Origin: Deltaproteobacteria bacterium
GTDB taxonomy: Bacteria; Myxococcota_A; Polyangia; Haliangiales; Haliangiaceae
Reading direction: 5' to 3'
DNA: 64,000 nucleotides
Assembly (NCBI GenBank): GCA_013812655.1
Contig: JACCTC010000081.1
Span: 1-64,000 of the forward strand
Part shown: one piece after another, positions 30,329-48,796 of the stretch
Position numbering within the stretch: position 1 is the stretch's first letter
Layout: each line of letters begins with the position of its first letter
Made by a program: the position numbers and the translations under genes
The notes under the pieces: model-generated
The model's database searches: none
Seen by the model: the letters and a program-made list of their open reading frames with translations, nothing else
Told to the model about the DNA's origin: nothing

Positions 30329-31048
30329 TCAGCGCTGCGCGGTCATGTAGCGCTCGAGCTCGTCGCAGCCGCCGATGTACTTGCCGTCGATGAACACCTG
30401 CGGCGTCGACGTCTTGCCACTGACCGCGCGAAGCCGCCGCGGCGACGCCTCGACCTCCTCGTAGGCCCAGCCGCGCTCGTCGAGCAGCCGCTTTGCCTTC
30501 GTGCAGTACGAGCAGCCGATCCGCGTGAACATCACGATGTCGTGCGGAGGCGGGGCACCGGGATCGAGGTGCTTCAGCATGGTGTCGGCATCCGAGACCT
30601 CGAACGGATCGCCTTCCTGCTCGGGCTCGACGAACATCTTCTCGATCACGCCATCGTTGACCAGCATCGAGTAGCGCCACGACCGCTTGCTGCCGAGGTC
30701 GGCCTTGTCGACGAGCATGCCCATGCGATCGGTGAATTCCGCCGTGGCATCGGGCACGAACGCGATCTGATCCGCGTGCTGCGTCCGTCCCCACTCCTCC
30801 ATCACGTACGGATCGTTGACCGAGATGCACACGATCGCGTCGATCCCGCGCGCCTTGAATGCGGGCGCGAGCTCGTTGTAGCGCGGCACGTGCGCGGACG
30901 AGCAGGTCGGCGTGAACGCGCCCGGCAGCGCGAACACCACCACTCGCTTGCCGGCAAACAGCTCCGCCGTGGTGAGCGTCGCCCACGCGCTGTCGCGGCG
31001 GACGCGAAACTTGATCTCGGGGACGCGCTGACCTTCTCGGCTCTTCAT
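30329..31048 (-). CDS. Peroxiredoxin-glutaredoxin hybrid (Prx5 type)
   Basis: A 239-residue fusion enzyme that reduces peroxides with glutathione. Residues 1-160 are a Prx5 domain with peroxidatic Cys in VVFALPGAFTPTCSSAHVP and the typical GSKRSWRYSMLVNDGVIE. Residues about 165-239 are a glutaredoxin domain with the dithiol CSYC (IVMFTRIGCSYCTKAKRLLD) and cis-Pro region KTSTPQVFIDGKYIGGCDEL. The same domain order occurs in Haemophilus hybrid Prx5. ATG 31048 is supported by the conserved N-terminus and a TAGACG hexamer 7 nt upstream. Together with osmC it gives the region two hydroperoxide-removal genes. Confidence 0.94.
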   Translation of the reverse strand: MKSREGQRVPEIKFRVRRDSAWATLTTAELFAGKRVVVFALPGAFTPTCSSAHVPRYNELAPAFKARGIDAIVCISVNDPYVMEEWGRTQHADQIAFVPDATAEFTDRMGMLVDKADLGSKRSWRYSMLVNDGVIEKMFVEPEQEGDPFEVSDADTMLKHLDPGAPPPHDIVMFTRIGCSYCTKAKRLLDERGWAYEEVEASPRRLRAVSGKTSTPQVFIDGKYIGGCDELERYMTAQR

Positions 31049-31092
31049 GGCGAGACGTCTACCACGATGACTCGGACTCGGTGGCGCCCGCC

Positions 31093-31416
31093 TCAAAGAT
31101 GAGCGTGAGCCTGGCAGCGGTCGGCCCACGCCATCTCGCCGAGGGCCGCGTCGCCGAGGTCGACGTCGCAGATCTCGCAGCGCCCGAACGAGTCATCCCC
31201 GGCATCGAGCAGTGCGCGCCGCTGCTCGATCTGATCGAGCGCCCACCGCAGCTTCTCCTCGGGCCGCATGCCGGGCTTCCCCGCGATCCCGAGTGTGCCG
31301 AGCTTTGGCGCCACTGGCTTGCCGGCGAGCACGTCCGCGAGCAGCGTCGCGAGCACGCGGCCTCGCTTCAGCAGACCCTGCCGCAGCCGCGCGCTCATCG
31401 CGTCGTCGAATCGCAC
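31093..31416 (-). CDS. Small DksA/TraR-like zinc-finger protein
   Basis: 107 residues starting at GTG 31416 (101 if ATG 31398 is used). An N-terminal helical part (MSARLRQGLLKRGRVLATLL) and a conserved helix MRPEEKLRWALDQIEQRRALL precede FGRCEICDVDLG ... WADRCQAH. These three cysteines and a His resemble the C4 zinc finger of TraR/DksA proteins, though one Cys is replaced. It starts 4 bases after the stop of the next Cys protein, so they form a two-gene unit. The role is unknown; RNA-polymerase secondary-channel binding would be the analogy. Confidence 0.6.
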   Translation of the reverse strand: MRFDDAMSARLRQGLLKRGRVLATLLADVLAGKPVAPKLGTLGIAGKPGMRPEEKLRWALDQIEQRRALLDAGDDSFGRCEICDVDLGDAALGEMAWADRCQAHAHL

Positions 31417-31420
31417 GCGT

Positions 31421-31714
31421 TCAGTGTGCCACGTCGAGCTGCGCGCCAGGCCCACTCCACCAGCGCGCCGCCCAGCGCTCGAGCTCGGCCGCGAGCCGCG
31501 CCGCGAGCCGGGGATCCGAGGACAGATCGCCGACCTTGCGCCGCGCGATCGACGTCGCGCGATCCGTGGCAGGCCATGGCCGCGTCCGCGGGACTTGCCG
31601 CGCGACATCCATCGCCCAGACCTCCCCGCGGCACGCGGCCACCCCACGGAGCTGCGCGAATGCGTCGTCGAGGCAGCGATCGCAGAGCTCGTCACGTGCA
31701 CAACCGCAGACCAT
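31421..31714 (-). CDS. Small Cys-containing protein, function unknown
   Basis: 97 residues. The N-terminus MVCGCARDELCDRCLDDAF has CxC and CxxC pairs and could bind a metal; the rest is helical and Trp-rich (LERWAARWW). I do not recognise a family. Support for it as a gene comes from a TAAGGT hexamer 6 nt before its ATG, and from tight linkage to the downstream zinc-finger gene. Confidence 0.5.
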   Translation of the reverse strand: MVCGCARDELCDRCLDDAFAQLRGVAACRGEVWAMDVARQVPRTRPWPATDRATSIARRKVGDLSSDPRLAARLAAELERWAARWWSGPGAQLDVAH

Positions 31715-31881
31715 GCGTTCACCTTACGAGGCGGGTCCGACGGCGCACCGTGAGGTCGTCTGCACCGTCGCGCGGGGCTAACGTCAGGCGGCCTCACCGG
31801 CAGGCCTGGCCACCACTCGAGTTGCCACCCCATGTGATCACGCAGGCTTGCGGACGCACGCAGCTTGCAGCCCCGGCACGC

Positions 31882-33447
31882 ATGATCGGGGACATCGTCG
31901 AGAATCGCTATCGCATCGAGGCGGAGCTCGGCGCCGGCGCGATGGGACGCGTCTATCGAGCGCGCCACGTCAAGGTCGGCTGTAGCGTCGCGATCAAGGT
32001 GTTGCACCGCGAGCTGCTCACCGTGCCGACCGTCGTCGAGCGGTTTCACCGCGAGGCTCGCATCGCGGCGCGACTTCGCCACCCGAACGTGATCGGCGTG
32101 CTCGACGTCGGCGAGACGGCCGCCGGCCAGCACCTCATGGTCCTCGAGCTGGCTCCCGGCATCCCGCTCTCGCAGCTCGTCAGCGCGCCGCTACCGCGTG
32201 CTCGCACGATCTCGATCATTGCCCAGCTCCTGCGCGGCCTATCTCACGCGCACGCCGCCGGGCTCGTCCATCGCGATCTCAAGCCGGAGAACGTCCTCGT
32301 CGAGACCTCACCCGCAGGCATCGATACCGCACGTATCGTCGACTTCGGGATCGCCGTCCTCCGCGATCGCGACGACGTTGCCGCCGGTCCACGGCTGACC
32401 GACGCGAACCTGATCATCGGCACGCCCCACTACATGTCACCCGAGCACGCGACCGGCGCGCCCGTCGATGGCCGCACCGATCTGTTCTCGCTCGGCATCA
32501 TCGTCTACGAGCTCCTCGCCGGCTGCCTGCCATTCGCCGGCTCGGGCGCCGACGTCGCATTCGCGAACGTCACCCGCGACCCGCCGGCCATCGCCGAGCG
32601 CGCGCCGTGCGCGACCGTCGACCCGCTGCTCGAAGCCTTCGCCCGCCGGCTGATGGCTCGCCGCCTCGACGAGCGATTTCAGAGCGCGCAGGAAGCGCTC
32701 GCAGTGCTCGAGCTGATCGAGCTCGATCGCACGGCCGCCACTCGGCTGCTCTGTCGCGCGGCCACCGCGCCCGCCGTCGTCGCGTACGTTCCGCAGCGAG
32801 TCGCGCCTGCGGTCGTCGTCGATCCACCGATGCGATCGGTGTTCGATAGCGACGCCCTGTCGACGATGCCGATCGAGACGATCGAGACGATCGCGCCGCG
32901 CACCCGGATCCGCCGCCGTGTTTGGTCCGTGCTCGCGGCCACCGCAATCGTCATCGCGATCGCGGCCGGCTGGGCGATGCCGACCACCACCGCGCGCGCG
33001 CCCGCGATCGAGCTCACGTCCACCGAGCCTGGATCGGCGGTCCGCGTCGTCACTCGCGATGTGCGTGTCGGCGAGTCGCAGCGACGTGTCGAGGCCCGCA
33101 GGCGTGCGCCCGCGGCTGCGGTCGATACGCGCGCGCCGGCGAGCGAGCCGGCGGCCGAGCCGGCGGCCCAGATCACGGTCGAGGTCGCGTCCGCGATCCC
33201 ACGCGTGGACGAGCCCACGAGCAGCGCCCCCGTCGCCGATAGCGCGTCGGCGATCGCCGCCCGCTACATCGCGATCGGCAAGGCGCTGCGCGCATGCAGC
33301 GGCGACGATCCGCTGTGGCAGCGCTACCGCTGGATCCGCATCGACGATGCGGTCGGCAGCAAGGCCGCGCGCCACGCGGCGAGCACGATCCTCGACAGCA
33401 TCGAGCGCGAGCTTGCAATCCGCTCGAGCGCGCCACGCGCCTCGTAG
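31882..33447 (+). CDS. Membrane-anchored Ser/Thr protein kinase
   Basis: A 521-residue eukaryotic-like kinase. The Gly-rich loop is LGAGAMGRVYRARH (about residue 16), ATP-binding Lys in SVAIKVLHRE (about 38), catalytic loop LVHRDLKPENVLVE (about 130), DFG in IVDFGIAVL, and the activation segment ends GTPHYMSPEHATG. A linker (about 265-340) is followed by one TM helix (about 347-366, VLAATAIVIAIAAGWAM) and a 150-residue periplasmic Ala/Arg-rich tail. ATG 31882 opens onto the kinase domain; the ORF extends upstream without kinase sequence. It converges with the lipoprotein gene at 33455 with only 7 bases between. Confidence 0.92.
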   Translation: MIGDIVENRYRIEAELGAGAMGRVYRARHVKVGCSVAIKVLHRELLTVPTVVERFHREARIAARLRHPNVIGVLDVGETAAGQHLMVLELAPGIPLSQLVSAPLPRARTISIIAQLLRGLSHAHAAGLVHRDLKPENVLVETSPAGIDTARIVDFGIAVLRDRDDVAAGPRLTDANLIIGTPHYMSPEHATGAPVDGRTDLFSLGIIVYELLAGCLPFAGSGADVAFANVTRDPPAIAERAPCATVDPLLEAFARRLMARRLDERFQSAQEALAVLELIELDRTAATRLLCRAATAPAVVAYVPQRVAPAVVVDPPMRSVFDSDALSTMPIETIETIAPRTRIRRRVWSVLAATAIVIAIAAGWAMPTTTARAPAIELTSTEPGSAVRVVTRDVRVGESQRRVEARRRAPAAAVDTRAPASEPAAEPAAQITVEVASAIPRVDEPTSSAPVADSASAIAARYIAIGKALRACSGDDPLWQRYRWIRIDDAVGSKAARHAASTILDSIERELAIRSSAPRAS

Positions 33448-33454
33448 GACGCGG

Positions 33455-33895
33455 CTACTGGAACGTCGGCGGCTCGGACGTGATGAAGCCGTCCAGCTGG
33501 GCCGGCTGATCGGCGGCAGGATCGGCGGCGTACCAGAAGTTCGTGACCGCGTACTTCGGGGTCGCGAGGTTGAACGGCAGCTCGAGCGTGACTCCCGGAA
33601 CGTCATCCGTGGTCGCCGTCAGCACGTGATCGCCGGGCGCGAGCTCGAACTTGAACTCGTGCCACGAGTGCTGGCCCTCGACGTCGAAGTCACCGGTGAC
33701 GGCGAGCTGGCCATCGATCTGCACGTTGATATCGACGACCTCGCGATCGAAGCTCTGGTTCGACACGTAGAGCGTGAAGTTCGGATTGGTGGCGACCGGC
33801 AGGTGCTGGCGCGCCGACCCGGCGCCGGGATCGGTGGCGCAGCCGGCGGCAGAGAGCACGAGGACGAGTGTGGACAACTGGGCTAGGCGGGACAT
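33455..33895 (-). CDS. Lipoprotein of unknown function
   Basis: 146 residues. The signal LAQLSTLVLVLSAAGCATD ends in the lipobox SAAGC. The mature part is one beta-sandwich-like domain (NFTLYVSNQSFDREVVDINV, then GDHVLTATTDDVPGVTLELP), similar in layout to small carbohydrate-binding or Ig-like domains. The ATG at 33895 has GAGGTG 6 nt upstream. It is the distal minus-strand gene of the group that includes the two barrels and the kinase-like lipoprotein, with a 177-base gap before it. Confidence 0.72.
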   Translation of the reverse strand: MSRLAQLSTLVLVLSAAGCATDPGAGSARQHLPVATNPNFTLYVSNQSFDREVVDINVQIDGQLAVTGDFDVEGQHSWHEFKFELAPGDHVLTATTDDVPGVTLELPFNLATPKYAVTNFWYAADPAADQPAQLDGFITSEPPTFQ

Positions 33896-34072
33896 GCCAG
33901 ACACCTCGAGCAAGCGCAGTGCCTTCGCCAAGCTCGCGTAACTGCATCGTGCAACCTCGAAATTCTGTCGTTCGCGGTATCCATATCCTCGGCAAAGTCG
34001 CCGGGAACACGGCGGCCGTCGCATTCGGGCGACCAATCTCCGCGATCGCGCGCGTCGGCTACGTCAACCGCG

Positions 34073-35152
34073 CTACCTGGCTGGCAAGAAGTCGGACTCG
34101 AACGCGAAGCCTGCGAGCAGGTATGGAAACGCGCGCGGCGTGAAGTCGTCGTCCGTCGTGTCAGCCGCGATATCGGTCTGCTCGCCGGTGCGCCAGCGGT
34201 GCGTCAGATACCACGAGGCGATCAGGATCACCGTTGGCTTGTTGAACGTCGACGGGCCACGGTCGCGCAGCGTGTATGCCGCGAACAGGCCAGCGCGCTG
34301 GTGGCCGTTGTCGCCCTCGTACGCGGCGCGGTCACCGCCGCTGGCGAAGTGCGAGTCCCGGTAGAACGGCTTGACCCAGGTATGCCGCACGCCGATCGCG
34401 AGGCCGGGGCGACCGATAAACAGCACGTCGGTATCGGTCGAGAGCGTCCAGCCGTTGTCGGGCAGCAGCGTGTCGAAGGTCGCCTCGTACGCGACCGTGT
34501 CGCCATCGCGAATGCGGAGAGCCCAGTAGTCGAGCTGGAACAGCGCGCGCACCGCGATCGGGCCCACCTTGAGCTGGAGCAGCGGCTGCAGCGAGGCGTG
34601 ATAGATCGTCGCGGTCTGGGGCTCGCGCGTCGGGTCGTCGCGCAGATCCTTGAGCCGCTGGTCGGAGTAGTTCGCGGTCGCCGACGGGAAGGACTGCAGA
34701 TAGCCCAGGATGCCGAAGTACTTCTGGACCTCGACGGTCGCGCGCAGGTTGAAGATCGACGCTGGCTGCAGCTCGCCACCGACCGCGAGGTGTGCACTCA
34801 CCGGGTTGAGCTTGGGATACACACCCGCGAACATGAAGTTGTTCTGCGTGATCGGTTTTGTCGACGCGTAGAGCCGCTTCTGGATGCCGATCCGCGCCCG
34901 CGTCTCGAGCCCGAGCGGGTTGAGCCGCAACACGGTGAGATCCGAGAGCATGAAGCGCGTTGCCGGTGGTGACCGCGGCGTGGCCTCTGCAGGCGGTGCG
35001 CTCGGCGTCGGCGGCGCGGGTGCCGCGGCAGGCTCGGCGACGGGTGGTATCGGCGCGCCGGCAGGCTCGGCGGCCGGCGGCGTCGGTTCGGGCGCCTGCG
35101 CCAAGGCGACGGCAGGCATGATCGCGATCAGGACCCCCAGCACTCCACGCAT
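34073..35152 (-). CDS. Outer-membrane beta-barrel protein with Pro/Ala linker
   Basis: 359 residues. Signal MRGVLGVLIAIMPAVALAQA is cleaved after ALA. A Pro/Ala/Glu linker (about 20-62) is followed by about ten amphipathic strands (TRARIGIQKRLYAS, IAVRALFQLDYWALRIRDGD, LAIGVRHTWVKPFYRDSHF, PTVILIASWYLTHRWRTG) and it ends in FAFESDFLPAR. The aromatic girdle and alternating pattern indicate an outer-membrane barrel, family unknown. ATG 35152 has TAGGAT 6 nt upstream, so it has its own promoter. Position suggests a link to the kinase-like lipoprotein block. Confidence 0.72.
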   Translation of the reverse strand: MRGVLGVLIAIMPAVALAQAPEPTPPAAEPAGAPIPPVAEPAAAPAPPTPSAPPAEATPRSPPATRFMLSDLTVLRLNPLGLETRARIGIQKRLYASTKPITQNNFMFAGVYPKLNPVSAHLAVGGELQPASIFNLRATVEVQKYFGILGYLQSFPSATANYSDQRLKDLRDDPTREPQTATIYHASLQPLLQLKVGPIAVRALFQLDYWALRIRDGDTVAYEATFDTLLPDNGWTLSTDTDVLFIGRPGLAIGVRHTWVKPFYRDSHFASGGDRAAYEGDNGHQRAGLFAAYTLRDRGPSTFNKPTVILIASWYLTHRWRTGEQTDIAADTTDDDFTPRAFPYLLAGFAFESDFLPAR

Positions 35153-35203: not shown

Positions 35204-36844
35204 CTAACGTCGATCGAGGCCGATCACGCGCATGCCGGTGCGGCCGCGCGCGACGTGCACGAACAGCGGGGGCATCGGCCTGGTGCCACGCCTCACCTCG
35301 AGCTCGACGATCGTGTAGCCGTCGCCCGCGTTGCCGGCCGGCAGGTTGAAGATGCACGAGCGTGCCTCGCCGGGCGGAAGCCAGGCGCTCGCGGCGGCCA
35401 GCGGTCGGCCGGCGTCGTCGAAGACCCGCGTGCGGTACGCCGTGGTGGCGGCGCTGCCATACGCGTACGCGAGCCACAGGTCGGTGAAGCACAGCTCGAT
35501 GACACCGGCGAGATCGGTCGCCTCGACCTCGGTCAGCGGCGCGACCCGCGAGAACGCGTGGTGACCGATCTTGCGCTGGCGCTCGAGCAGCGTCTTGACG
35601 ACGTACGCGGACGTGCGCGGGTCGCTGTACGCGCCGGCGGCGACCGCCGCCTCGATGTGCTCGCGGGTCATCCGCATCAGGATCTCGGCGGCCCACAGAT
35701 CATCGAACCGATCGGCGGCGTCCGCCGGGCGCCAGTGGTGAGCCGGCGTCCACCGCGCCGGATCGAACAGCTCGCTCTCGAAGTTACCGAGCCCGCGTAG
35801 CTCGGGATACGAGATGCGCTTCTCCCACGGCTCGACGCGCAGCCCGAGCGTGAAGAGCGAGGTCAAGAAGCCGGTCAGCGAATAGACGCCTCGGTAGCCG
35901 AGGATCGGATACGCCGTCGTGCGAGCAGTCACGCCGAGCGAGTCACCGAAGTCGATCGCGTACCACTCGACGTACTTGCCATCGGTGTACGTCGCCAGCG
36001 TGTTCTGCGACTTGAGGTCGACGTGATCGACCCAGGCCCACAGCATGCGCTGGCCGCGTAGATCGCGGCGCAGCTCGTGCGGGACGCGATCGTTCGGATC
36101 GCCATCGCGTACCCCGCCCGGCTCGACGCCACCGACGATCTTGCCGGCGACGAACTTGCTCGCGAGCGCGCGATAGCGGCCGTCGGCCTCGGGCGTCGCC
36201 ATGCCGATATACTTCTCGAGATCTGCCTGCGTCATCGGTCGCTTCGCGCCGGTCCGCAACTTCACCTCGGCGGACGGATCGAGGACGAGCTGGGGTCGCT
36301 CGAAGTACACGACGGTGTTGTCGGGGACGTTGTAGCCGAACGCCCAGGTCAGGCGCTGGACGATGACGTCGGCGGCGGTCTCGGTCTCCGGGAAGTCGCG
36401 CTCGTCGAACTTCAGCACGTAGCGATCGCCGCGTCCGTCCTTGATCGTGATGCCGATCGCCGCGCCGCCGACCTTGACGCCGATCACGCGCCACGGTTCG
36501 CTGCGATCGGGACCATCGCCGCCTGGCCCGCGGCGAACTTGCTCGGGGGTCACGTTGCGGTTCGTGAACCACGCCGAGTCCGGCACCGCACCGATGCTGT
36601 TCGCGTTCGCGGCGCGGCGCGGCGTCTCGATCGTCAGGGCGCGCCGCGTGGGCTCCATGAGGTTCTCGTGGACGTAGTACTCGAAGATGCTCTCGTCGAA
36701 CGTCTTCGGCGGCGCGATCGGCCGGCGGTCGTTGACGAGCGTGACCGGCTCGCGGTTTGCGAACCGCAACGGACCCGGGCCATGGCGCGCCGGTCCGGCA
36801 CAGGCGCCGAGCAGCACGAGCAGTGCGATCGAGGAGGGCTTCAC
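35204..36844 (-). CDS. Exported lipoprotein with protein-kinase-like motifs (paralogue A)
   Basis: 546 residues. Signal KPSSIALLVLLGACAGP has a good lipobox (LGAC). The core (about 105-330) has the ordered hallmarks of a protein-kinase-like fold: a strand with Lys (RYVLKFDERDF), a helix with Glu (ETETAADVIVQRL), a loop DHVDLKSQNTL matching HxDxKxxN, then VEWYAIDFGDSLG matching DFG. The C-terminal half is helical then beta-rich. Its paralogue at 39847 keeps every one of these residues. The ATG overlaps the stop of the Omp85-like gene (ATGA), so the two are made together. Kinase activity outside the cytoplasm is unproven; ATP supply is a problem. A peptide- or sugar-binding pseudokinase is the alternative. 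Confidence 0.6.
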   Translation of the reverse strand: MKPSSIALLVLLGACAGPARHGPGPLRFANREPVTLVNDRRPIAPPKTFDESIFEYYVHENLMEPTRRALTIETPRRAANANSIGAVPDSAWFTNRNVTPEQVRRGPGGDGPDRSEPWRVIGVKVGGAAIGITIKDGRGDRYVLKFDERDFPETETAADVIVQRLTWAFGYNVPDNTVVYFERPQLVLDPSAEVKLRTGAKRPMTQADLEKYIGMATPEADGRYRALASKFVAGKIVGGVEPGGVRDGDPNDRVPHELRRDLRGQRMLWAWVDHVDLKSQNTLATYTDGKYVEWYAIDFGDSLGVTARTTAYPILGYRGVYSLTGFLTSLFTLGLRVEPWEKRISYPELRGLGNFESELFDPARWTPAHHWRPADAADRFDDLWAAEILMRMTREHIEAAVAAGAYSDPRTSAYVVKTLLERQRKIGHHAFSRVAPLTEVEATDLAGVIELCFTDLWLAYAYGSAATTAYRTRVFDDAGRPLAAASAWLPPGEARSCIFNLPAGNAGDGYTIVELEVRRGTRPMPPLFVHVARGRTGMRVIGLDRR

Positions 36845-38247
36845 AGGGCACCCAGCGTGATGAAGCCCCCGACGTCACCGCTGCCGGAGCCCGCGATCTG
36901 GATACGTGCCCACGCGCCGGCTGCGCCGACGAACCTGATGCCGCCGCCATACCCGGCATGGAAGCGCGACGCCGCGAGCTCGCTCACCCCGGGATGCACC
37001 GCGCCGGTCTCGACGAACAGGAAGCCGGAGCTGCGCGAGTCGAGCGGCCACGAGTACTCGACGTCGGCATGAGTCGCGGTGCGATCGCGCAGCTCGTCGC
37101 GGGCGAACGCGCGCATGCGTTCGCTGCCACCAAGACCCGGCAGGCGATCGAACGGCAGCTCGGTCGCGGACGCGGTGACGGCCTCGAGGCTGGCGCCGAT
37201 CGTCAGCACGCGGTCGCCGTGAAACAGATCGAACAGCCGGCGCGCCTCGATCGTGCCACGGCTGGTCGCGAAGTCGCCCGTGCGCGACGCCGTCCCGGCG
37301 GTGTACCCGTAGGCCCCGCGCAGATAGAGCCCGGTCGACGGCGCGCCACGCTTGTTGAACCGATAGCTCGTCCGCCGAGTGTCGTACGAGACCGCGACCT
37401 CGCCAGTGCCTGCACGCTGGGTCTCGTCGAACCCGACCAGCGCCATGCCATCGTAGGACCCGGTGAAGGTGGCGTCACCATCGTCGGATCGGAGAACGTC
37501 AGCGATCGCGCGCGCCTCGATCTTCACGCCGCTGGTCCGCGCGACGAGCCCGGCCGACGTCTCGAACATCCGGGTGTCGTAGGTCGCGCGCGGCCCGCTA
37601 CGGTAGGGATCGAACGGGATTGGGGGCGCATCGCCGATGCCCGCGAACGCACGGGTGAGGCTCCGGCCCACATCGAGGGTCAGCACCGGCTCGACGTCTG
37701 CCTCGGTGAACCGACCGAGCGTCGCCCGCAATCCGCCGCTCTGACCGCGTGGGCCAAATAGCCCACCGTGGGCGTCTACGCTCGCCTCGCCGAAGCCGTG
37801 CCCGACGCGGACGCCGATGCTGGCGCCGAGCTCGGTCTCCCAGTCGACCACGGCGCCGAACCGCCAGCCGCCCTGCTTGGTGACATCGCGGCCGCCGTAG
37901 CTCGGGCTCTGACTCTCGCGCTTGCGATCGAGCCGCACGGCGGCGTAGCGAGGGCCTTCGAGCAAGAACAGCGCGATCGTGCGGGGCACCGCGAGCAACG
38001 CATTGGCGACGCGATGACTCGGGTGCGGCGGCTCGACGATGACGCCCGACGCGCGATCTGCCGGTGGTGCCGCTGCCAGCTGGTCCGGGATCGGCATCGG
38101 TGCGGCGACGGGAACGGGTGCGACTACCTCGGCGGGAATCGCCGGGACGTCGGCCGCGCTCGCGGACGGGTTCGTCGTCGCGAGCGGATCCGCTGCGACT
38201 GGAGTGCTGCCGAGCAGGAGCAGTAACCAGATCGCGCGACGTCCCAC
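36841..38247 (-). CDS. Omp85/BamA-like surface-antigen barrel
   Basis: 468 residues. A signal peptide (GRRAIWLLLLLGSTPVAA) and a Pro/Ala-rich stretch precede a C-terminal barrel of about 300 residues. Conserved pieces are GGWRFGAVVDWETELGASIG, VSYDTRRTSYRFNKRGAPSTG, and the lid-lock-like LGGSERMRAFARDELRDR, close to the bacterial surface antigen (D15) signature. There are no POTRA domains. Single-barrel Omp85 relatives often act with a partner lipoprotein or patatin-like passenger. Here the stop overlaps the ATG of the kinase-like lipoprotein. A TAAGCT hexamer lies 9 nt before GTG 38247, and a divergent metallophosphatase gene starts 148 bases away. Confidence 0.78.
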   Translation of the reverse strand: MGRRAIWLLLLLGSTPVAADPLATTNPSASAADVPAIPAEVVAPVPVAAPMPIPDQLAAAPPADRASGVIVEPPHPSHRVANALLAVPRTIALFLLEGPRYAAVRLDRKRESQSPSYGGRDVTKQGGWRFGAVVDWETELGASIGVRVGHGFGEASVDAHGGLFGPRGQSGGLRATLGRFTEADVEPVLTLDVGRSLTRAFAGIGDAPPIPFDPYRSGPRATYDTRMFETSAGLVARTSGVKIEARAIADVLRSDDGDATFTGSYDGMALVGFDETQRAGTGEVAVSYDTRRTSYRFNKRGAPSTGLYLRGAYGYTAGTASRTGDFATSRGTIEARRLFDLFHGDRVLTIGASLEAVTASATELPFDRLPGLGGSERMRAFARDELRDRTATHADVEYSWPLDSRSSGFLFVETGAVHPGVSELAASRFHAGYGGGIRFVGAAGAWARIQIAGSGSGDVGGFITLGAL

Positions 38248-38395
38248 GGGCGCTCGAGCTTACAACGTCTGTGCCGGGTTAACTCGTGTGCTCGGGAACG
38301 TCACTGTCGCGCCAGCGCACGGTGATCGTCCTGGCATCAGCAAAAGCCGTAGAGGGGCGTGCATCCCCGGCACATACCCTGCAACTCTCCCCACC

Positions 38396-39850
38396 GTGCG
38401 TTTTGTCCGGCCTCTGATCCCCTTCGCCCTCATCGCGATCTTCGCGAGCGCGAGCAGCTGTCATCTGGTGCCGGTCTGGGACGGCAAGGTCGAGGTACGG
38501 GCCCTCGAGCGCAAGTCGATCGCGGCGTGCGGAACTGGCGCGCTCACTCCCGAGGGCGCAAAGCGCATCACCCGGTCGCCCTATATCCAGAACACCACGA
38601 CGACGAGCACCAACGTCGTGTGGGGATCGATCGACGGCAAGGCCGCGGTCGTGCTGAGCGAGCCCAACAAGGGCGAGGTCGTCCGGACGGTTCCCGCGGT
38701 CTATGCGGCGGATCCCGGTCGCGCGGCAGCGCGGCTCGCGGCGCAGGTGGCCCCCGGCAAGGAGCTCGCGGCGGACAACATCCTCGTCGTCAAGTCCGAG
38801 CTCACCGGCCTCAAGCCAACGCACCTCTACTGTTACCAGGTCGTCGCCGACGACGGGCCACTGACCGAGCTCGCGCCACTGACCACGGCAGCGGCACCCG
38901 GCCTCGACCAGCCCACGCACTTCGTCATGGTCGGCGACACCGGCACCGGCGGCGCCGCGCAGGTCGCGATCGCGAAACGGATGTCCGAGGTGCCGTTCGA
39001 TCTGATGGTGTTCCTCGGCGACATCGCCTACGAGTCGGGAACGCCGACGCAGCTCGAGAACAAGTTCTTCCAGATCTATCGCGACTACCTGCGCTACGTG
39101 CCGGCGTATCCCGCGATCGGCAACCACGAGCGGCGGACCCGTCAGGGGCGCCCGTACTTCGAGGCGTTCGTGCTGCCCGAGCCGGAGCGCTACTACTCGT
39201 TTGACTGGGGCGATGTTCACTTCGTCGCGATCGACACGACACAGCGCGACTCGAAGCAGCTGCAGTGGCTCACCGAGGATCTCTCGAAGAACAAGCTTCC
39301 GTGGGTGATCGTCTTCGGTCATCACCCGATGTACACGAACGCGCTACGTGGCCCGCAGCGCGGCATCCGTCGCGCATTCGCCAAGATCTTGACCGACCAC
39401 AAGGTCGATCTCGTGGTGATGGGTCACGAGCACCACTACGAGCGGTTCCGCGTCGGCGGCGTGAACTACATCGTCAGCGGCGGCGGTGGTGGTCAGCTCA
39501 CGCGGTTCTTCGGCAGCTTCGGCTCGCTCAAGAAGGCGACGGTGCACCATTACCTCGCGTTCGAGGTCACCGCGAAGACGCTCGTGATGAAGGCGATCAA
39601 CATCAGCGGCAAGGAGATCGAGGAACTGCGGCTCACCAAGGACAGCGACGGCGCGATCAAGGTGAAGGTCGACGACAAGCCGGAGACCAAGTCGACGCCG
39701 GTCGCCCCCGAGAAGCAGACCACGCCGGACGAGAAGCTTCACGACGAGCCCGACGACGATGTGAAGGAACAGCCCACGCCGCCTCCCGCGGCGCCGCCAA
39801 AGATGCCGGTGCCGACGCCGACCACCACGCCACCGAAGAAGGCGCCATGA
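38396..39850 (+). CDS. Exported purple-acid-phosphatase-like metallophosphoesterase
   Basis: 484 residues. The N-terminus (RFVRPLIPFALIAIFASASSC) is a lipoprotein-type signal. A fibronectin-III-like domain (ITRSPYIQNTTTTSTNVVWGS) precedes the calcineurin-like catalytic domain with metal motifs VMVGDTGTGG, VFLGDIAYESG, AIGNHERR, VIVFGHHPMY and MGHEHHYER. All the classic Asp/Asn/His ligands except the first-motif His are visible. The last 75 residues are Lys/Pro/Thr-rich and probably span the periplasm or reach the surface. Start GTG 38396 is chosen from the signal peptide. The stop overlaps the ATG of the second kinase-like lipoprotein (ATGA), pairing a phosphatase with a kinase-like protein. 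Confidence 0.87.
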   Translation: MRFVRPLIPFALIAIFASASSCHLVPVWDGKVEVRALERKSIAACGTGALTPEGAKRITRSPYIQNTTTTSTNVVWGSIDGKAAVVLSEPNKGEVVRTVPAVYAADPGRAAARLAAQVAPGKELAADNILVVKSELTGLKPTHLYCYQVVADDGPLTELAPLTTAAAPGLDQPTHFVMVGDTGTGGAAQVAIAKRMSEVPFDLMVFLGDIAYESGTPTQLENKFFQIYRDYLRYVPAYPAIGNHERRTRQGRPYFEAFVLPEPERYYSFDWGDVHFVAIDTTQRDSKQLQWLTEDLSKNKLPWVIVFGHHPMYTNALRGPQRGIRRAFAKILTDHKVDLVVMGHEHHYERFRVGGVNYIVSGGGGGQLTRFFGSFGSLKKATVHHYLAFEVTAKTLVMKAINISGKEIEELRLTKDSDGAIKVKVDDKPETKSTPVAPEKQTTPDEKLHDEPDDDVKEQPTPPPAAPPKMPVPTPTTTPPKKAP

Positions 39851-41493
39851 ACCGGCGCGGCGCAGCGTCACGCGTGATGGCTCGCTGGCCAGCCCTGCCG
39901 GTCGTCGCGATCTGTGCGGCGTGCTCGCAACCCGACGGCAATGCCGCGCCCCCGGCGCCGGCCACGCCAGTCGCGAAGGTCGACGATCGCCAGCCGATCC
40001 CGAAGCCGCCGTCCGAGCCGGTCAAGACCCCGATGCCCGCGCCGTTTCCGTCGAACGCGATGGCGCTGCAGCCGATCGCCGACCCACGCATCGTCAGCGT
40101 CAACAGCCTCGACGAGGTGCCCGACTCGACGTGGTTCACCAATCGCAACACGGTGAGCCCGCTGTCGGCGGACGCGATCCGCAAGGGTCCGGGCCCGCAC
40201 GCGACGCCTCGCGATGATGCGCGCTGGACGATCATCGGCGTCAAGGAGACCGGCGTCGCGCTCGGATTGCGCGCGGTCGACGAGACCGGTGCGAAGTTCT
40301 TCCTCAAGTTCGATCCCGATGGCCACCACGAGGTCGAGACCGGCGCCGATGTCGTCGTCCAGCGATTGCTGTTTGCCGCCGGCTACAACGTTCCGGAGAA
40401 CGACGTCGTGTATGTCTCGCGCGCAGCGCTGACGATCGATCCGAAGGCGACCTTCGGCCGCACGAAACGCGCGCTCCGCGGCGCGGACGTCGACCGCCTG
40501 CTCGCACGTGCAGCACGCGAGACCGATGGCCGCTACCGCGTGCTCGCGAGCCGGTTCCTCCCGGGGTCGGCGCTTGGCGGCACCGAGCCAGCGGGTCGCC
40601 GTCGCGGTGATCCGAACGACGCGATCCCGCACGAGCACCGCCGCGATGTGCGCGGCCTCTATACGCTCGCGGCGTGGCTGAACCACACTGACATCAAGTC
40701 GGCGAACACGCTCGACGTCTGGATCCCTGACCCGGCCGATCCGTCGCGCGGCCACGTCGTCCATTACCTGCTCGACTTCGGCAAGGCCCTCGGCGCGATC
40801 ACGCGGATCGATCCGCGACCGGAAGCCGGCTTCGCGCACGACGGCGCGATCAAGCATCGCGTCAAGGAGATCGCGACGCTCGGGCACGTCAAGCCGCCGT
40901 GGGCTGACATCGGCCCGTTCCCGGACCTACGAGGTCTCGGCTGGATCGAGAGCGAGCGCTTCGATCCAGCGAACTGGAAGCCGCTCCATCCGTGGCTGCC
41001 GTTCGTCGCTGCCGACCGCTTTGACAAGTTCTGGGGCGCGCGGATCGTCATGAGCTTCACGCCCGAGCAGATCCGCGCCGCACTCGCGGCCGCGCGCTAT
41101 ACCGATCCGCGGACGGTCGAGTACCTCGCGCGTGTCCTCGTCGAGCGTCAGCGCAAGATCGGCGAGCACTTCTTTGGCCGGGTCGCGCCGCTCGAACGGT
41201 TCCGCGTGAATCGCGACGCGCTCTGCTTCGATGATCTCCGCGTGCGCTACGGGCTCCGCAGCAACGATGCGATCTACGCGGCAGAGGTCCGCGGCGATCA
41301 CGCGCAGCCATGGCGTCAGACGGGGCGCAGCAACGCGCAGGGCACCGTGTGTCTCGCGGATGTCCCGCGCCTGCCCGAGGCCGTCACGACGGCGATCGAG
41401 GTGCGGGTCGCAGGTCCAGGGCGTGTCGATCCAGCGACCGTCGTGCATCTCACCGGCGGCCGGCCAGCGGTCGTCGCCATCGAACGCCGCTGA
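39847..41493 (+). CDS. Exported lipoprotein with protein-kinase-like motifs (paralogue B)
   Basis: 548 residues. The signal (MARWPALPVVAICAACSQPDG) ends in a lipobox-like CAAC; the upstream ATG 39847 overlaps the phosphatase stop. It is a paralogue of the protein at 35204-36844 over its full length (shared DEVPDSTWFTNRN versus GAVPDSAWFTNRN; RQRKIGEHFFGRVAPL versus RQRKIGHHAFSRVAPL). The kinase-like set is conserved: KFFLKFDPDG (Lys), HEVETGADVVVQRLL (Glu), NHTDIKSANTLDVW (HxDxKxxN) and HYLLDFGKALG (DFG). Gly-rich-loop function may come from IIGVKETGVALG. The two paralogues sit in divergent operons with different partners, so they may act on different substrates. Confidence 0.62.
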   Translation: MNRRGAASRVMARWPALPVVAICAACSQPDGNAAPPAPATPVAKVDDRQPIPKPPSEPVKTPMPAPFPSNAMALQPIADPRIVSVNSLDEVPDSTWFTNRNTVSPLSADAIRKGPGPHATPRDDARWTIIGVKETGVALGLRAVDETGAKFFLKFDPDGHHEVETGADVVVQRLLFAAGYNVPENDVVYVSRAALTIDPKATFGRTKRALRGADVDRLLARAARETDGRYRVLASRFLPGSALGGTEPAGRRRGDPNDAIPHEHRRDVRGLYTLAAWLNHTDIKSANTLDVWIPDPADPSRGHVVHYLLDFGKALGAITRIDPRPEAGFAHDGAIKHRVKEIATLGHVKPPWADIGPFPDLRGLGWIESERFDPANWKPLHPWLPFVAADRFDKFWGARIVMSFTPEQIRAALAAARYTDPRTVEYLARVLVERQRKIGEHFFGRVAPLERFRVNRDALCFDDLRVRYGLRSNDAIYAAEVRGDHAQPWRQTGRSNAQGTVCLADVPRLPEAVTTAIEVRVAGPGRVDPATVVHLTGGRPAVVAIERR

Positions 41494-43000: not shown

Positions 43001-44158
43001 ATGGGTAAAGAGAACGACACGAAGCAGCCCGGCAAGACTGAACCCGCAAAGGCCGCTCCTGCCGGCGAGACCAAGGCCACCGAGACCACCGCTGGCGCGG
43101 TCGACTTCGCGGCGCTCGATGCGGCCTACGAGAAGGCGGAGAACGCGCAGGAAAGCCTGATGGATCGACGCGCACTCGGTATCCGCCAGGTGCTCGGAAA
43201 CCTCCAGGAGGCCGACGAGGCGTCGCTCGCCGACGAGCTCGTCAAGACGCTCGCGGTGGCAGGGCTCGCGTTCGCCAGCCAGTACGTCACTGCCGCTGTC
43301 GCCGGCAAGATCTTCATCGACGCTGGTACACGCCTCGCCCAGTCGGTGCAGGAAGGCCTGCACTCCGGTCTGCAGGACGCGGCAGGCAAGATCGCTGGCA
43401 AGCTGTCGGCAGTGGATGGCCAGTCCAAGGTGTCGTACTTCGCAGGCCAGGAAGAAGGCATCCTCGACCTCAAGCTGAAGTCGGTCGACAAGATCGCCGA
43501 GGACAAGCTTGTCGCCAAGGGCAAGGTCACGGGTGTTGCGACCGACAAGCAGGCCGACGAGCTCACGAAGCAGGTCCAGGGCGCGGAGCAATTCCGTGCA
43601 TCCGCTCTCGCGCAGCTCGAGACCGCGCGCACCGTGCAGTATCGCGAGAGCCTCTCCAAGTGGATGAACGCGATGTCCCAGAGCGCGCTCGGCAAGGACG
43701 GCGGCGGGACCGGCCTCGGTAAGGCGGTCGACATGTCCCCCAAGGATCACTATGGCAAGGCGGGCGCGAAGGGCGTCATCTACGTCGCTTTCGCGTCGCA
43801 CCCGGCGTCGCGTCCGTTCGCGGTGTCCGGCAAGCGCGCGACGATCAAGGTGTCCGGCATGACGTCGGCCGCGCGCGATCAGATCAAGAGCGTCCCGATC
43901 AAGGACCTCGGTATGCCGATCGTCGCCAGCGGCTTCATCTACGACGGCTTCCTGGACGGTCTGTCGGTGGGCATGGGCGATAACGAGGCTGCATTCGGCA
44001 AGAACGAAGCCGGCAGCGTGTGGTGGGAGGGTCATCCCGATGCGGCGGCGGCCCTCAAGAAGGCCGCGAACAAGTCCAGCGTCACCGAGGCTGCCCGCGT
44101 GATCCTCGATGAGGACATCGGGATCTCGACGCTCGAACACGCGACCACCATGGCGTGA
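43001..44158 (+). CDS. Unknown protein upstream of an injection-system-type AAA+ ATPase
   Basis: 385 residues with no signal peptide. The first 35 are disordered Lys/Pro/Thr-rich. A helical, Ala-rich region follows (about 40-230) with an amphipathic/hydrophobic stretch LAVAGLAFASQYVTAAVAGK and coiled-coil-like LGNLQEADEASLADELV. The C-terminal 150 residues are mixed alpha/beta (GVIYVAFASHPASRPFAVSG, PIVASGFIYDGFLDGLSVGM). No family is recognised. Lys content is higher than in neighbours. GAGG lies 6 nt before the ATG. The stop overlaps the next gene (GTGA), and the AAA+ gene follows, so these three probably act together, possibly with this protein as the client. Confidence 0.6.
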   Translation: MGKENDTKQPGKTEPAKAAPAGETKATETTAGAVDFAALDAAYEKAENAQESLMDRRALGIRQVLGNLQEADEASLADELVKTLAVAGLAFASQYVTAAVAGKIFIDAGTRLAQSVQEGLHSGLQDAAGKIAGKLSAVDGQSKVSYFAGQEEGILDLKLKSVDKIAEDKLVAKGKVTGVATDKQADELTKQVQGAEQFRASALAQLETARTVQYRESLSKWMNAMSQSALGKDGGGTGLGKAVDMSPKDHYGKAGAKGVIYVAFASHPASRPFAVSGKRATIKVSGMTSAARDQIKSVPIKDLGMPIVASGFIYDGFLDGLSVGMGDNEAAFGKNEAGSVWWEGHPDAAAALKKAANKSSVTEAARVILDEDIGISTLEHATTMA

Positions 44159-44847
44159 GGCTCCCGCTCGAACGTGCACTGGCGCTGGTCCGCGAGGGCC
44201 AGACCACCGAGGCAGAGGGAATGCGGAGTCAGCTCGAGCCACTCGAGCAGGCCCGCCTCGATCTGGCGCTCGCGGTGCGCGCGGACGATCCGGCGCGTGC
44301 GCTCGAGCTCGCGGCGTCGCTCTGGTATCGCGTCGAGGTCGACGCGACCGTGCTCGCGACGCTGGTGCGCTACGAGCATCCCGAGCTGCGCGAGACGGCC
44401 GCCGACGCGCTCATGCGCAACACCAGCGATGCCGCCTATGACGTGACTGCGGCATGGCGAACGCTCGCGACGGTGCCGGATGACCTCGACGCGTGGCGAG
44501 ACGTGCTGATCTCGCTGGTGGCGAACGGCCGCGACCTCGAGGCCGTCGACGGCGTGGCCCGCGCGCTCTCCGAGCGCCAGGCCGACTTCGGGCTGTGGGC
44601 GCTGCTGACCACGACCCTGTTGACCTACCGCCGCGGTACGGCATTACGCCATGCGATCCGGCTCGGTCGGAGCGCGTTCGAGGATGCGCCGCAGGCCCTG
44701 GCGACGAATGCGCTGATCTATGTCGGGCTCGGCGAGCTCGCGGCCGCGCAACGCGAGCTCGATGTGATCGGTGCCCGGGAAGCGGCGCACCCGCTCGTGG
44801 TGGCAGCACGTGCAGCGGTCAGCGAGGCCGTTGCCGCCGCGCGCTGA
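44155..44847 (+). CDS. Helical-repeat protein of the AAA+ gene block
   Basis: 230 residues, cytoplasmic, almost entirely helical, with HEAT/TPR-like spacing (RADDPARALELAASLWYR, ETAADALMRNTSDAAY, VDGVARALSERQADFG, LGELAAAQRELDVIG). It starts with a GTGA overlap on the preceding gene, and the AAA+ gene follows within 15 bases. Such repeat proteins often serve as adaptors. The exact family is not recognised. Confidence 0.6.
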   Translation: MRLPLERALALVREGQTTEAEGMRSQLEPLEQARLDLALAVRADDPARALELAASLWYRVEVDATVLATLVRYEHPELRETAADALMRNTSDAAYDVTAAWRTLATVPDDLDAWRDVLISLVANGRDLEAVDGVARALSERQADFGLWALLTTTLLTYRRGTALRHAIRLGRSAFEDAPQALATNALIYVGLGELAAAQRELDVIGAREAAHPLVVAARAAVSEAVAAAR

Positions 44848-44862
44848 GTTATGCTCGGCACG

Positions 44863-46830
44863 GTGCGCGGCCCCACTGCTCATGCCGCGCGGATCGCCCG
44901 GGAACGGTTGCGACTCCAGACCGCTGCCGGTGGCGATCCGGCGCCCGATATCTCCGTCCAGCTCGCCGAGCTGACGCGCGCGATCCACGCAGCCGACGAC
45001 GCTGACCCGATCGCGGCGCTCGCACGGCGCCTTGACGTCGACCGCCGCAGCGAGGACTTCCTGGCATTCGTGATCGCGTGCTGTACGGATCCGGTGTGCG
45101 CCGCCGCCTTGCTGCGCCTGCAAGGCTCGTCGGCGCAGCACGGCCCGACGATCGCGTCGTACGTGTCGGTCTCGGGCGCCGGCGATGACGCCCGAGAGCT
45201 CGCGCTGGAGCTCGCGACGACGCACCCGCTCGTCGAGACGTCGATCCTCGAGACACGGAGCGATCCAGGCGTCACCCCGGTCTTGCGGCTGTGGTCGGTG
45301 AGCCCACGCGTCGCCCGGCAGCTGACCGGCGATACCGCGGTCGCCGAGCCGCTGCAGACCGTGACCGTGCCAGAGCTGGCGCTGTTCGACGAGGAGCAGC
45401 GGCACATCCTCGACGCGCTCGGCCGCGCGCTCGCGAGCGATCGTCCACTGACGATCCTGATGGAAGGCCCGACGGGATCCGGACGCGCGACCGCGGTCGC
45501 GGCGGCGGCCGAGGGGCTCGCACGGCCGGTCGCGATGCTCGCGCTCGACCGCATCGATCGGACCCCGGAGGCGCTCGAGCATGGCTTGCGCGCGCTGCGC
45601 CGCGAGACCGCGCTCGCCGGCGCGATCGCCGTGATCCGCGGGCTCGAGGAGCTCGACGGTGCCGACGAGACCGCGCGACGCCGACGGCTCGAACACTTCA
45701 TCGGCACGGCACGCCAGCCGATGGTCGTGATCAGCTCGCTCGCGGGTCAATCGATCCGCGTCCCCGGTGAGATCGTACGCGCGGACTGGACCGCGCCCGG
45801 GACGGCCGCGCGTCGCAACATGTGGAGCGTGTTACTCGAGCTCCACGATCCCGAGCATGGGCTATCGGACCTCGATCTCGACGAGCTCGGTCATCGCTAT
45901 TCGCTGGGACCGGGTGCGATGCGCGACGCGATCGCGACCGCAAAGCTGGCTGCCGGGCGCAAGCAACTGACGATGGCGGGCGTCGTGTCGGCGCTCCGTC
46001 AGCGCACGACCGAGCGCCTCACCGGCCTGACGACGCACGTCCGGGTCCGTCAGGAATGGTCAGACCTCGTCGTGGCGCAGGACACCCGTGATCAGATCCA
46101 GGCGCTGATCTCGCGCGTCCGTCACAGTCACCAGGTCCTCGAGCGCTGGGGCCTCGAGCAGCGCGTCGGCCGTGCCACCGGCGTTGCCGCCCTGTTCAGC
46201 GGTGCACCGGGCACCGGCAAGACGATGGTCGCGGGTCTGGTCGCAAAGGAGCTCGGGCTCGACCTCCACCAGATCGAGCTCTCTCAGGTGCTCTCGAAGT
46301 GGATCGGCGAGACCGAGAAGCAGCTCGCGCAGATCTTCGACGCCGCCGGCACCGGCCACTGTTTGCTGCTGTTCGACGAGGCCGACGCGCTGTTCACCAA
46401 GCGGACCGAGGTCAAGTCCTCCAACGACCGCCACTCCAACCTCGAGGTGAACTTCCTGCTCCAGCGGATGGAGGCGTTCCGCGGCATCGTCATCCTCACG
46501 ACCAACCTCGATTCGTCGATGGATCCGGCCTTCAAGCGCCGGCTCGCCTCGCACATCGTGTTCTGGCCGCCCGACGACGACGAGCGCGACCGGCTCTGGA
46601 AGAGCTATCTGTCCTCGGGGCTACCGGTCGCCCAGGATCTCGACATCGACAAGCTCGTACGCAACTACCCCGACCTCTCGGGCGCGCACATCCGCAATGC
46701 CGTGCTCAATGCGGCGTTCGCCGCTGCCACGCGCGGTGGCATCGTCACCCAGGCCGCGCTCGAGTCCGCCGCCCGCAACGAGTACGCGACGATGGGCCGC
46801 GTGCTCGCGCGCGACGGCCGGATCCGCTGA
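44863..46830 (+). CDS. Tandem AAA+ ATPase related to contractile-injection-system (Afp15/Pvc15-type) ATPases
   Basis: 655 residues. The first P-loop is degenerate ([13 protein letters not shown]: the Walker Lys is Arg, the Ser/Thr is Ala). The second is canonical ([20 protein letters not shown] near residue 446), with [14 protein letters not shown], Walker [17 protein letters not shown], sensor-1 ILTTNLDSS and arginine finger region [11 protein letters not shown]. The spacing [13 protein letters not shown] before the P-loop and IGETEK/DEADALF resemble the AAA+ proteins of extracellular contractile injection systems. No sheath, tube or baseplate genes occur here. GTG 44863 is preferred to ATG 44851 because TATGCT (44850-44855) ends 7 nt before it; the ATG lies inside that hexamer. 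Confidence 0.8.
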
Positions 46831-46979: not shown

Positions 46980-47231
46980 CTAATCGAGCAGCGCGCTGTA
47001 AGCGCTCTCGTTATCTTCGTCGGCATCCGGCAGCTCCGCGAAAGCCGCGGCCTCCACCGGCTCGGTATCGTCCGCCGTCTGGTTCTGGACCAGATCGATC
47101 ACGAACGCCGCGAAGCTGCCTTCCTGCGGATTGTCGGACGGGTCATCGGGCCCGCCACCGCTGCGATCGTCGCTGGTGCTGCATGCACTCGCGGCCACCA
47201 CGAGCGCCACGACGATGCCGAGGCGTCTCAT
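46980..47231 (-). CDS. Small acidic lipoprotein coupled to DUF4331 gene
   Basis: 83 residues. Signal MRRLGIVVALVVAASACSTS has lipobox SAC. The mature part is acidic and low in complexity (GGGPDDPSDNP, FAELPDADEDNESAY) and probably extended. Its ATG overlaps the stop of the DUF4331 gene by 4 bases, so it is made with that protein. Function unknown. Confidence 0.65.
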   Translation of the reverse strand: MRRLGIVVALVVAASACSTSDDRSGGGPDDPSDNPQEGSFAAFVIDLVQNQTADDTEPVEAAAFAELPDADEDNESAYSALLD

Positions 47232-48796
47232 GGCGCACCCGGGATCGGCGTGTTGAGGTACGGGAAGCTGGTGCGGAACTTCATCGCGTTCGTTCCGGCC
47301 CCATCGACGTACGGGAGGCAACCCGTGCTGTCGGCGTGCAGACACCCGCCCGAGGGCGCATCCGTCCGGTTGACGAGCGCGCCCATCGCCACGCGGAGCT
47401 CGATGTCGACAACATCGTCACCGGGCCGGCGGCCATTCGGGAAGCCGGCCGGGTCGCAGTCTTCGTTGGTGGTGTCGAGCTTCGCGTTCTCCGTGGCCGT
47501 GGGATCATCGAAGCACCCCGAGGCGCCGTACGGACTCTGCGCCGTGCACGTCGTCGCCGGGATCGCGGTGTTGAGCCGCTGCATCTCGGCGGTCGAGCCG
47601 TTCGCATTCACGTCGGGCACGCCCGTCAAGAACGCGGCGACGAGGTCGGTGCGCGGGAAGTTGTTCGGCGCTCGAACGCCGGCACCGCCGAACGCGATTT
47701 CGACGACCTCCGGCAGTGTCGGGTGAGTGACGTAATCGGCGAGCTTCGCATCGTCCTTGGGCTCGGCCGCGTTGAAGAGGTTCTTGTCCTTGAGCCCGAT
47801 GATGATCTCGTTGACCAGCGGCATCCCGAGCCGCGAGACCTGGACCCACGGACCACCAACGCGCGCCGGCTTCTCGAAGCTCGGCGTCGGGTCCACGACC
47901 TCCGCCTGGCGAACGCTCGCCGTGATCCAGGCACCGATGATCGGTGTGCTGGCATCCTTGGTCAGGCACGCCTTCGGTACCTCGACCGCGATCGTGGTGA
48001 CATTCTTGTGCTCGAGGTCGTTGGCGCCTTGCTCCTGCGCTCCGAGCACGTTGGCGACGCGATCGGTTCCGGCAGGCTCGAGGTTCAGCGTGTCGAAGAT
48101 CTGGCCAACGTTGACCGAGAAGCCTTCTTTGCGCTGGCCGACGAACACGCGCGCCATACCCGCGGTGCAGCCAGGCAGCTCGACGTCGTACATGAACTTC
48201 GCCGCGTAGGCTGGGTAGTTCGGGATCGTCTTGGGGCCGATGTTATCCAGCGGCTTGCGAAAGACGTCCGAGCCGTTGTGATGCTTCACGGCGGACACCT
48301 GGCCCGTTCGCCGGTCGCCACGTACGACCTTGAGCTTGTAGGTCTCGATCACGTTCTGCCCGGCATCGTTGCCGGCCGAAATCGGTCCGATCGCCGTGAA
48401 CGGCACTGCGATCGACTTGGTTGCACCGGACGGCCCGACGTCGAGCGCGATGCCACTGCCGCCGGCGAGATTCATGTCGAAGTCGAACCGAAACGTGATG
48501 TCTTCGATCGCGTCCCCGTTGTTGTCGACGTGGATCTCGTAGAGCGCGTCGGGATCCATCGTGAAGTAGTTCGGACCTCCGTACGGATCCTGGAGCGGCT
48601 GGAAGTTCGCGAGGAGGGTGACGTACTGGTCCCGACCCGTTTCGTAGCTGTTGAACAGGTAGAGATCGGTGGCGTCGACCTTGGGCCTCTCGGTGATGTA
48701 TGGGGCCTCGCGATGGCTTGAGGCGCCGACCGTTGCCGGCGCTAGCATCGTGACCAGCGCGGTGGCGCCTCCGGTTATCCGATTTCTCAGTCGCAT
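47228..48796 (-). CDS. DUF4331-family exported protein
   Basis: 522 residues. The signal (ALVTMLAPATVGA) is followed directly by the family hallmark SSHREAPYITERPKVDATDLY. Further conserved pieces are YFTMDPDALYEIHVDNNGD, FRFDFDMN, SRLGMPLVNEIIIGLKDKN and VDIELRVAMGALV. DUF4331 proteins are secreted beta-rich proteins of unknown activity. The ATG at 48796 has a clear AGGAG site 7 nt upstream. It is part of a minus-strand group of secreted proteins (46980-49351). Confidence 0.9.
   Translation of the reverse strand: MRLRNRITGGATALVTMLAPATVGASSHREAPYITERPKVDATDLYLFNSYETGRDQYVTLLANFQPLQDPYGGPNYFTMDPDALYEIHVDNNGDAIEDITFRFDFDMNLAGGSGIALDVGPSGATKSIAVPFTAIGPISAGNDAGQNVIETYKLKVVRGDRRTGQVSAVKHHNGSDVFRKPLDNIGPKTIPNYPAYAAKFMYDVELPGCTAGMARVFVGQRKEGFSVNVGQIFDTLNLEPAGTDRVANVLGAQEQGANDLEHKNVTTIAVEVPKACLTKDASTPIIGAWITASVRQAEVVDPTPSFEKPARVGGPWVQVSRLGMPLVNEIIIGLKDKNLFNAAEPKDDAKLADYVTHPTLPEVVEIAFGGAGVRAPNNFPRTDLVAAFLTGVPDVNANGSTAEMQRLNTAIPATTCTAQSPYGASGCFDDPTATENAKLDTTNEDCDPAGFPNGRRPGDDVVDIELRVAMGALVNRTDAPSGGCLHADSTGCLPYVDGAGTNAMKFRTSFPYLNTPIPGAP

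Follow-up and report, generated by a model that had tools for sequence, protein, structure and literature searches.

The window analysed here, 64,000 nucleotides of contig JACCTC010000081.1 from a deltaproteobacterial genome (assembly GCA_013812655.1), carries between positions 35204 and 41493 two divergent transcription units encoding two exported kinase-like proteins, an Omp85 beta-barrel and a phosphatase-like lipoprotein. The gene designated kinA (35204..36844, minus strand) codes for an exported lipoprotein of 546 amino acids, composed of a protein-kinase-like domain and a C-terminal beta-sandwich. It is preceded on the same strand by the gene of a POTRA-less Omp85 beta-barrel of 468 amino acids (36841..38247), and the two genes overlap by four nucleotides (GTGA). 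A divergent intergenic region of 148 bp (38248..38395) separates the barrel gene from that of a purple-acid-phosphatase-like lipoprotein of 484 amino acids (38396..39850, plus strand), for which the GTG at 38396 was the best start. The latter overlaps by four nucleotides (ATGA) with kinB (39847..41493, plus strand), encoding the second exported kinase-like protein of 548 amino acids. An earlier sequence-only reading of this DNA had given the same gene order and divergence; it had described both overlaps as ATGA, which held for the phosphatase/kinB junction but not for the barrel/kinA one.

Homology between the two kinase-like proteins extends along their entire length (E = 1e-113, 40% identity), in agreement with the paralogy claimed in that reading, and both carry the motifs it had named. 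In kinA, the strand Lys is K145 of 'VLKFD' (36410..36412, minus strand), the catalytic loop HVDLKSQN spans residues 274-281 (36002..36025), with D276 and N281, and DFG occupies residues 298-300 (35945..35953). The corresponding elements of kinB, on the plus strand, are K154 of 'FLKFD' (40306..40308), HTDIKSAN at residues 280-287 (40684..40707) and DFG at residues 310-312 (40774..40782). The word 'duplicated' that had been applied to the pair was correct as to the presence of two paralogues but too loose, as kinA and kinB are two of seven old paralogues in the source genome, which amounts to 8.1 Mb in 508 contigs. The nearest paralogue of kinA is a copy on another contig (61%), and the family is therefore old and expanded rather than the result of a fresh tandem duplication.

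The conservation of the putative active site was counted over 123 homologues. K145 was kept in 117 of them (95%), D276 in 118 (96%), N281 in 114 (93%) and D298 of DFG in 119 (97%), so that the Lys/HxDxKxxN/DFG set emphasized in the sequence-only reading was kept across phyla and its presence in kinA and kinB is not fortuitous; D147 of 'KFD' was conserved in 120 (98%), far better than the helix Glu. In alignment A2, comprising 109 members with a degenerate subgroup excluded, D276 and D298 were invariant. Outside the classical kinase motifs, S90, G170, D249, D252, R259, R260, R263, W384 and R422 were also invariant in A2. The excluded subgroup consisted of four members (L146, L147, L148 and L149), in which the Lys, the loop Asn and the two Asp residues have all been lost and which represent natural pseudoenzymes of the system.

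The AlphaFold model of kinA built from the 109-member alignment had a predicted local distance difference test score (pLDDT) of 95.5 and a predicted template modelling score (pTM) of 0.94. It comprised a small-lobe sheet, with K145 ending a strand and followed by the helix 154-169, a helical lobe holding the HxDxKxxN loop and DFG, and the C-terminal beta-sandwich (residues 437-546). The best Foldseek matches of this model in PDB were Fam20C (2e-4), VPS34 (6e-4), CtkA (6.5e-4) and PI4KII-alpha (7e-4), followed by HipT and PINK1, and kinases made up nearly all of the top 50 (E-values from 2e-4 to 1e-2). PI3K/PI4K, CotH and Ser/Thr kinases were also matched in the Foldseek viral library. The predicted fold of kinA is almost certainly kinase-like, as the sequence-only reading had anticipated, and the model together with the catalytic residues places kinA and kinB in an atypical branch of the protein-kinase-like (PKL) superfamily.

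In profile searches, no sequence model in Pfam, NCBIfam or PDB covered the family. HipA_2 was the sole Pfam family touched, weakly, by 2 of 30 diverse members (best E 4e-4), and no profile match to HipA_C was found among the members. The alignment with the HipA profile lay in the expected N-lobe register with a weak score of 33, the median of the shuffles being 15; one of 150 shuffles exceeded 33, at 136, which was an 18-column edge artefact. Membership of the CotH family was rejected, as kinA, kinB and the 30 members gave no Pfam match to the CotH profile (PF08757), with an hhalign probability of 0.5%. The same proteins did not match the Fam20C Pfam profile, the likeness to Fam20C being one of fold only. 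The PI3_PI4_kinase Pfam family is essentially absent from the phylum.

A GTDB-wide scan revealed 128 relatives of the kinase-like family. The best 80 of the 128 came from Myxococcota/Deltaproteobacteria, Acidobacteria, Nitrospira, Gemmatimonadetes, Zixiibacteriota, Latescibacterota, Caldithrix/Calditrichota, Omnitrophota and Eisenbacteria. The family spans at least nine phyla, and all the lineages listed are diderm. Its distribution is patchy, with members in about 10% of 284 genomes sampled from the phylum; Kofleriaceae and other metagenome-assembled genomes of Myxococcota were the close relatives of the source genome in the named genome collection. Among cultured organisms, the complete genome of Nitrospira moscoviensis encodes a member (L112). 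A phage or defence origin was rejected, as neither kinA nor kinB had a match in PADLOC or PHROGs; PADLOC gave none for the barrel either, and its only match among these genes was a weak one to the phosphatase (0.008). No plasmid relatives were found.

Export signals were examined with a simple consensus rule for the lipobox, not with a trained predictor. At least 96 of the 116 members having an intact N-terminus possessed a lipobox. Of the other 20, most carried either a lipobox that narrowly failed the rule or a simple Sec signal lacking the Cys, and one or two were truncated. Sec signals without Cys occurred mainly in Acidobacteria (L095, L097, L113, L114, L116 and L089), so that not every member of the family is lipid-anchored. 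At the locus itself, kinA carries the canonical lipobox LGAC with its Cys at residue 15 and kinB an irregular AICAAC, so the lipoprotein signals attributed earlier to both proteins were borne out in canonical form for kinA but not for kinB. Judging from these predicted signals, crossing of the inner membrane is general in the family and lipidation is common, not universal; the location past the inner membrane put forward earlier follows from the signal sequences.

The barrel encoded upstream of kinA matched BamA by sequence profile (1.3e-13) and the TamA barrel by fold (8.8e-12, Foldseek). Its model contained a poorly ordered N-terminal stretch of about 75 residues, one helix (76-111) and a barrel of 16 strands, POTRA domains being absent. 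No DUF560-type or TPR match, as tested for Slam, was found for the barrel in Pfam or NCBIfam. The L6 consensus of the barrel family is LGGxxxLRGYxxxRFRDR, with the RGF/RGY motif, in place of which the window copy has MRAF. From profile and predicted structure, the protein is a member of the Omp85/TpsB superfamily without POTRA.

A barrel gene was located directly upstream, on the same strand, of 77 of the 86 family genes whose upstream sequence was long enough, frequently with 4-nt overlaps, a linkage much stronger than could be seen in the sequence-only reading. The non-adjacent cases included kinB and the second copies in the tandem kinase-like pairs L059 and L082, as well as L103, with a barrel just past the distance limit, L067, with a barrel further upstream, and L064, with one on the opposite strand. 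In the reverse direction, 47 of 50 strong matches to the barrel subfamily in 56 genomes lay no more than 1.5 kb from a kinase-like gene, and the six strongest barrel matches in the source genome were exactly those adjoining six kinase-like paralogues. The distance matrices of barrels and kinase-like proteins were correlated over 98 pairs (r = 0.81; 0/999 permutations) and over the six paralogue pairs of the source genome (r = 0.94; exact Mantel 8/720), a divergence that partly reflects common descent, the within-genome value concerning paralogues. The barrel and the kinase-like lipoprotein very probably function together. A single open reading frame, L125:181-2928, encodes most of a barrel and a kinase-like domain without the barrel end and the kinase start; given the missing segments it was rejected as a genuine fusion, probably represents a deletion or an assembly error, and was not used for topology.

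The phosphatase gene product contains all five metal-ligand motifs, GDxG, GDxxY, GNH[E/D], GHxP and GHxH, in the forms GDTG, GDIAY, GNHE, GHHP and GHEHHYER (Metallophos E 6e-17), and by these motifs it is classified as a purple acid phosphatase-like metallophosphatase. Related metallophosphatase genes adjoined the module in about one sixth of the loci, in Myxococcota, Bryobacterales and Eisenbacteria, and in the source genome they lay beside three modules (the window, L008 and L012). Apparent phosphatase neighbours at L052, L071 and L115 were discarded as antisense shadow open reading frames.

The data directly support the existence of a sequence family with a predicted fold, conserved catalytic residues and export signals, the identity of the barrel, its tight linkage to the kinase-like gene and the correlated divergence of the two. 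With a probability of roughly 60%, the genes form a two-gene cell-envelope module of an exported atypical kinase-like enzyme of the HipA/PI3-4K/Fam20 type and a dedicated POTRA-less Omp85 barrel encoded upstream. Catalysis, donor, acceptor, topology and the role of the phosphatase in this module are what we infer as follows. The kinase-like lipoprotein would be exported by Sec and would then dock on its own barrel in the outer membrane, where, at the barrel interface, it would move a phosphoryl (or nucleotidyl) group from a nucleotide onto an outer-membrane lipid, lipopolysaccharide or protein. Like that of PlpD, the barrel would serve as a scaffold and a gate for the substrate; alternatively, it would carry the enzyme to the surface. 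The former arrangement, with a periplasmic active site, is slightly favoured, while a barrel acting as exporter is possible but rather doubtful. The linked phosphatase-like lipoprotein would take off the added group or dispose of the nucleotide product, and its action as an antagonist of the kinase-like enzyme is proposed only tentatively.

Several observations weigh against such a module. The periplasm is thought to have no ATP, which makes the nucleotide donor the main difficulty of the mechanism. By sequence, the kinase-like domain is not matched along its extent by any known kinase family, and the Foldseek E-values and global TM-scores were modest (TM <0.4 over the query). The helix Glu, listed among the core residues in the sequence-only reading, did not share the conservation of the others, with Glu at position 153 in 85 of the 123 homologues (69%) and at position 155 in 38. 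The kinB transcription unit has no adjoining barrel gene, and the correlated divergence has the component of common descent mentioned above. The link with the phosphatase, real as it had been claimed to be, is facultative, with the phosphatase (P), barrel (B) and kinase-like (K) genes in the orders P-K, K-P, B-K-P and divergent P/B-K. Moreover, the L146-L149 subgroup retained the barrel neighbour despite the loss of the catalytic residues, so its barrel partnership is independent of catalysis. For CotH, too, the source of ATP is stated as an open question (PMC7821199).

These points bear in different ways on three other explanations. The barrel could be a dedicated lipoprotein exporter (Slam/type XI-like or two-partner) that brings the kinase-like enzyme to the cell surface, where extracellular substrates and released ATP would be used. 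Such a role would suit the single barrel per cargo, the position of the barrel gene first with coupled junctions, the lipid anchors common in the family and the general capacity of Omp85 proteins to move or insert proteins (PMC4104836). It was nevertheless judged unlikely, since the barrel is of the BamA/TamA type and not of the Slam family, POTRA domains are absent, in some cases one barrel goes with two kinase-like genes in tandem (L059, L082) and PlpD, the closest studied Omp85-plus-enzyme protein, has a periplasmic enzyme domain (PMC11116518).

The joint retention of K, D, N and D in more than 90% of homologues across nine phyla is as catalysis predicts, and the loss of these residues is limited to one small subgroup. 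Both findings argue against a kinase-like fold without phosphotransfer, that is, a subunit of an Omp85 complex with a structural or ligand-binding role, in which the residues would be kept for a phosphorylated ligand or a metal. The lack of ATP expected in the periplasm, the barrel retained by the degenerate subgroup and the invariant D249, D252, R259, R260, R263, W384 and R422 outside the classical motifs would be accommodated by this explanation, which was considered less likely still than surface export. Genuine phosphoryl or nucleotidyl transfer by the kinase-like proteins is fairly probable. A purely assembly-related partnership, with the lipoprotein as a BamB-like chaperone or plug of the barrel and the Omp85 protein inserting outer-membrane proteins, appears improbable: protein insertion is the canonical Omp85 role and the pairing is near-obligate, but BamB is a beta-propeller and not kinase-like, and the presence of more than one paralogous pair in a genome, with the active sites conserved, is better suited to substrate-specific enzymes.

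Bacterial kinases that work beyond the cytoplasm are, to our knowledge, few. With its conserved active site, its own Omp85 partner and a spread over nine or more diderm phyla, the family would extend the roles of POTRA-less Omp85 barrels to an enzymatic one and provide a means of modifying the bacterial envelope after export. A wider proposal, given somewhat less than even odds, is that exported kinases with their own POTRA-less Omp85 barrels, and sometimes a phosphatase, form a widespread, undescribed outer-membrane phosphorylation system of diderms, whose covalent marks would be placed on lipids or proteins of the envelope, outside the cytoplasm. The family is testable because it occurs in the cultured, completely sequenced N. 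moscoviensis.

Other genes of the window surround the two units. On the 3' side of kinA, on the same strand, lie the genes of a 359-amino-acid exported protein (34073-35152) and a small lipoprotein (33455-34036), neither with a confident family. A conventional Ser/Thr kinase with a Pkinase domain is encoded at 31081-33447, about 2 kb from the atypical kinase-like genes; it is probably unrelated to kinA and kinB, such kinases being abundant in genomes of this kind. A redoxin-glutaredoxin hybrid protein is encoded at 30329-31129. An AAA ATPase gene (44851-46830) is directly preceded by two genes of unknown family without Pfam matches (43001-44158 and 44155-44847), and a DUF4331 protein is encoded at 47228-48796 (E 1e-136).

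No described system with the kinase-like/barrel gene pair was found in the open-licence literature searched, and the pair is real and conserved and apparently undescribed, with components from known superfamilies. Like Fam20C, the top Foldseek match, and CotH, which is described as distantly related to Fam20C (PMC7821199), the family has a kinase-like fold working outside the cytoplasm. It differs from them in the missing profile matches, in its active-site loop HxDxKxxN...DFG and in being paired with an Omp85 barrel, and its members are neither sporulation proteins nor eukaryotic. HipA-like kinases (HipA_C, HipA_2, HipT, CtkA) provided the best sequence-level hints, along with the CtkA and HipT fold matches. 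In contrast to these cytosolic proteins, the family is exported, gives no HipA_C match, has no HipB-type antitoxin gene in the neighbourhoods listed and possesses an N-terminal SxWFxNR element, a DxND..H..RR..R motif and the C-terminal beta-sandwich.

On the barrel side, Slam/type XI systems share an outer-membrane barrel gene adjoining a lipoprotein gene and, for Slam, surface-lipoprotein export, but the barrel belongs to another family and Slam cargo is not kinase-like. The 'noNterm' class of Omp85 proteins (Heinz and Lithgow 2014, PMC4104836) is POTRA-less like the barrel described here, a likeness of architecture and not a cluster assignment; no kinase is mentioned in the text of that paper. 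In its 'Metallo' subfamily, a barrel resembling the noNterm class is fused to PF00149 (Metallophos), which is also found in the phosphatase at this locus; by analogy this offers an independent hint that this phosphatase type and this barrel type may work together. PF00149 is named there a metalloprotease and is the calcineurin-like phosphoesterase family. PlpD, composed of patatin, POTRA and Omp85 barrel domains, differs in being a lipase and not kinase-like, in forming one polypeptide and in having a POTRA domain. It nevertheless joins an enzyme to an outer-membrane Omp85 barrel, membrane lipids are altered in its mutant (PMC11116518), and no studied protein comes closer as a precedent for an enzyme retained at such a barrel.

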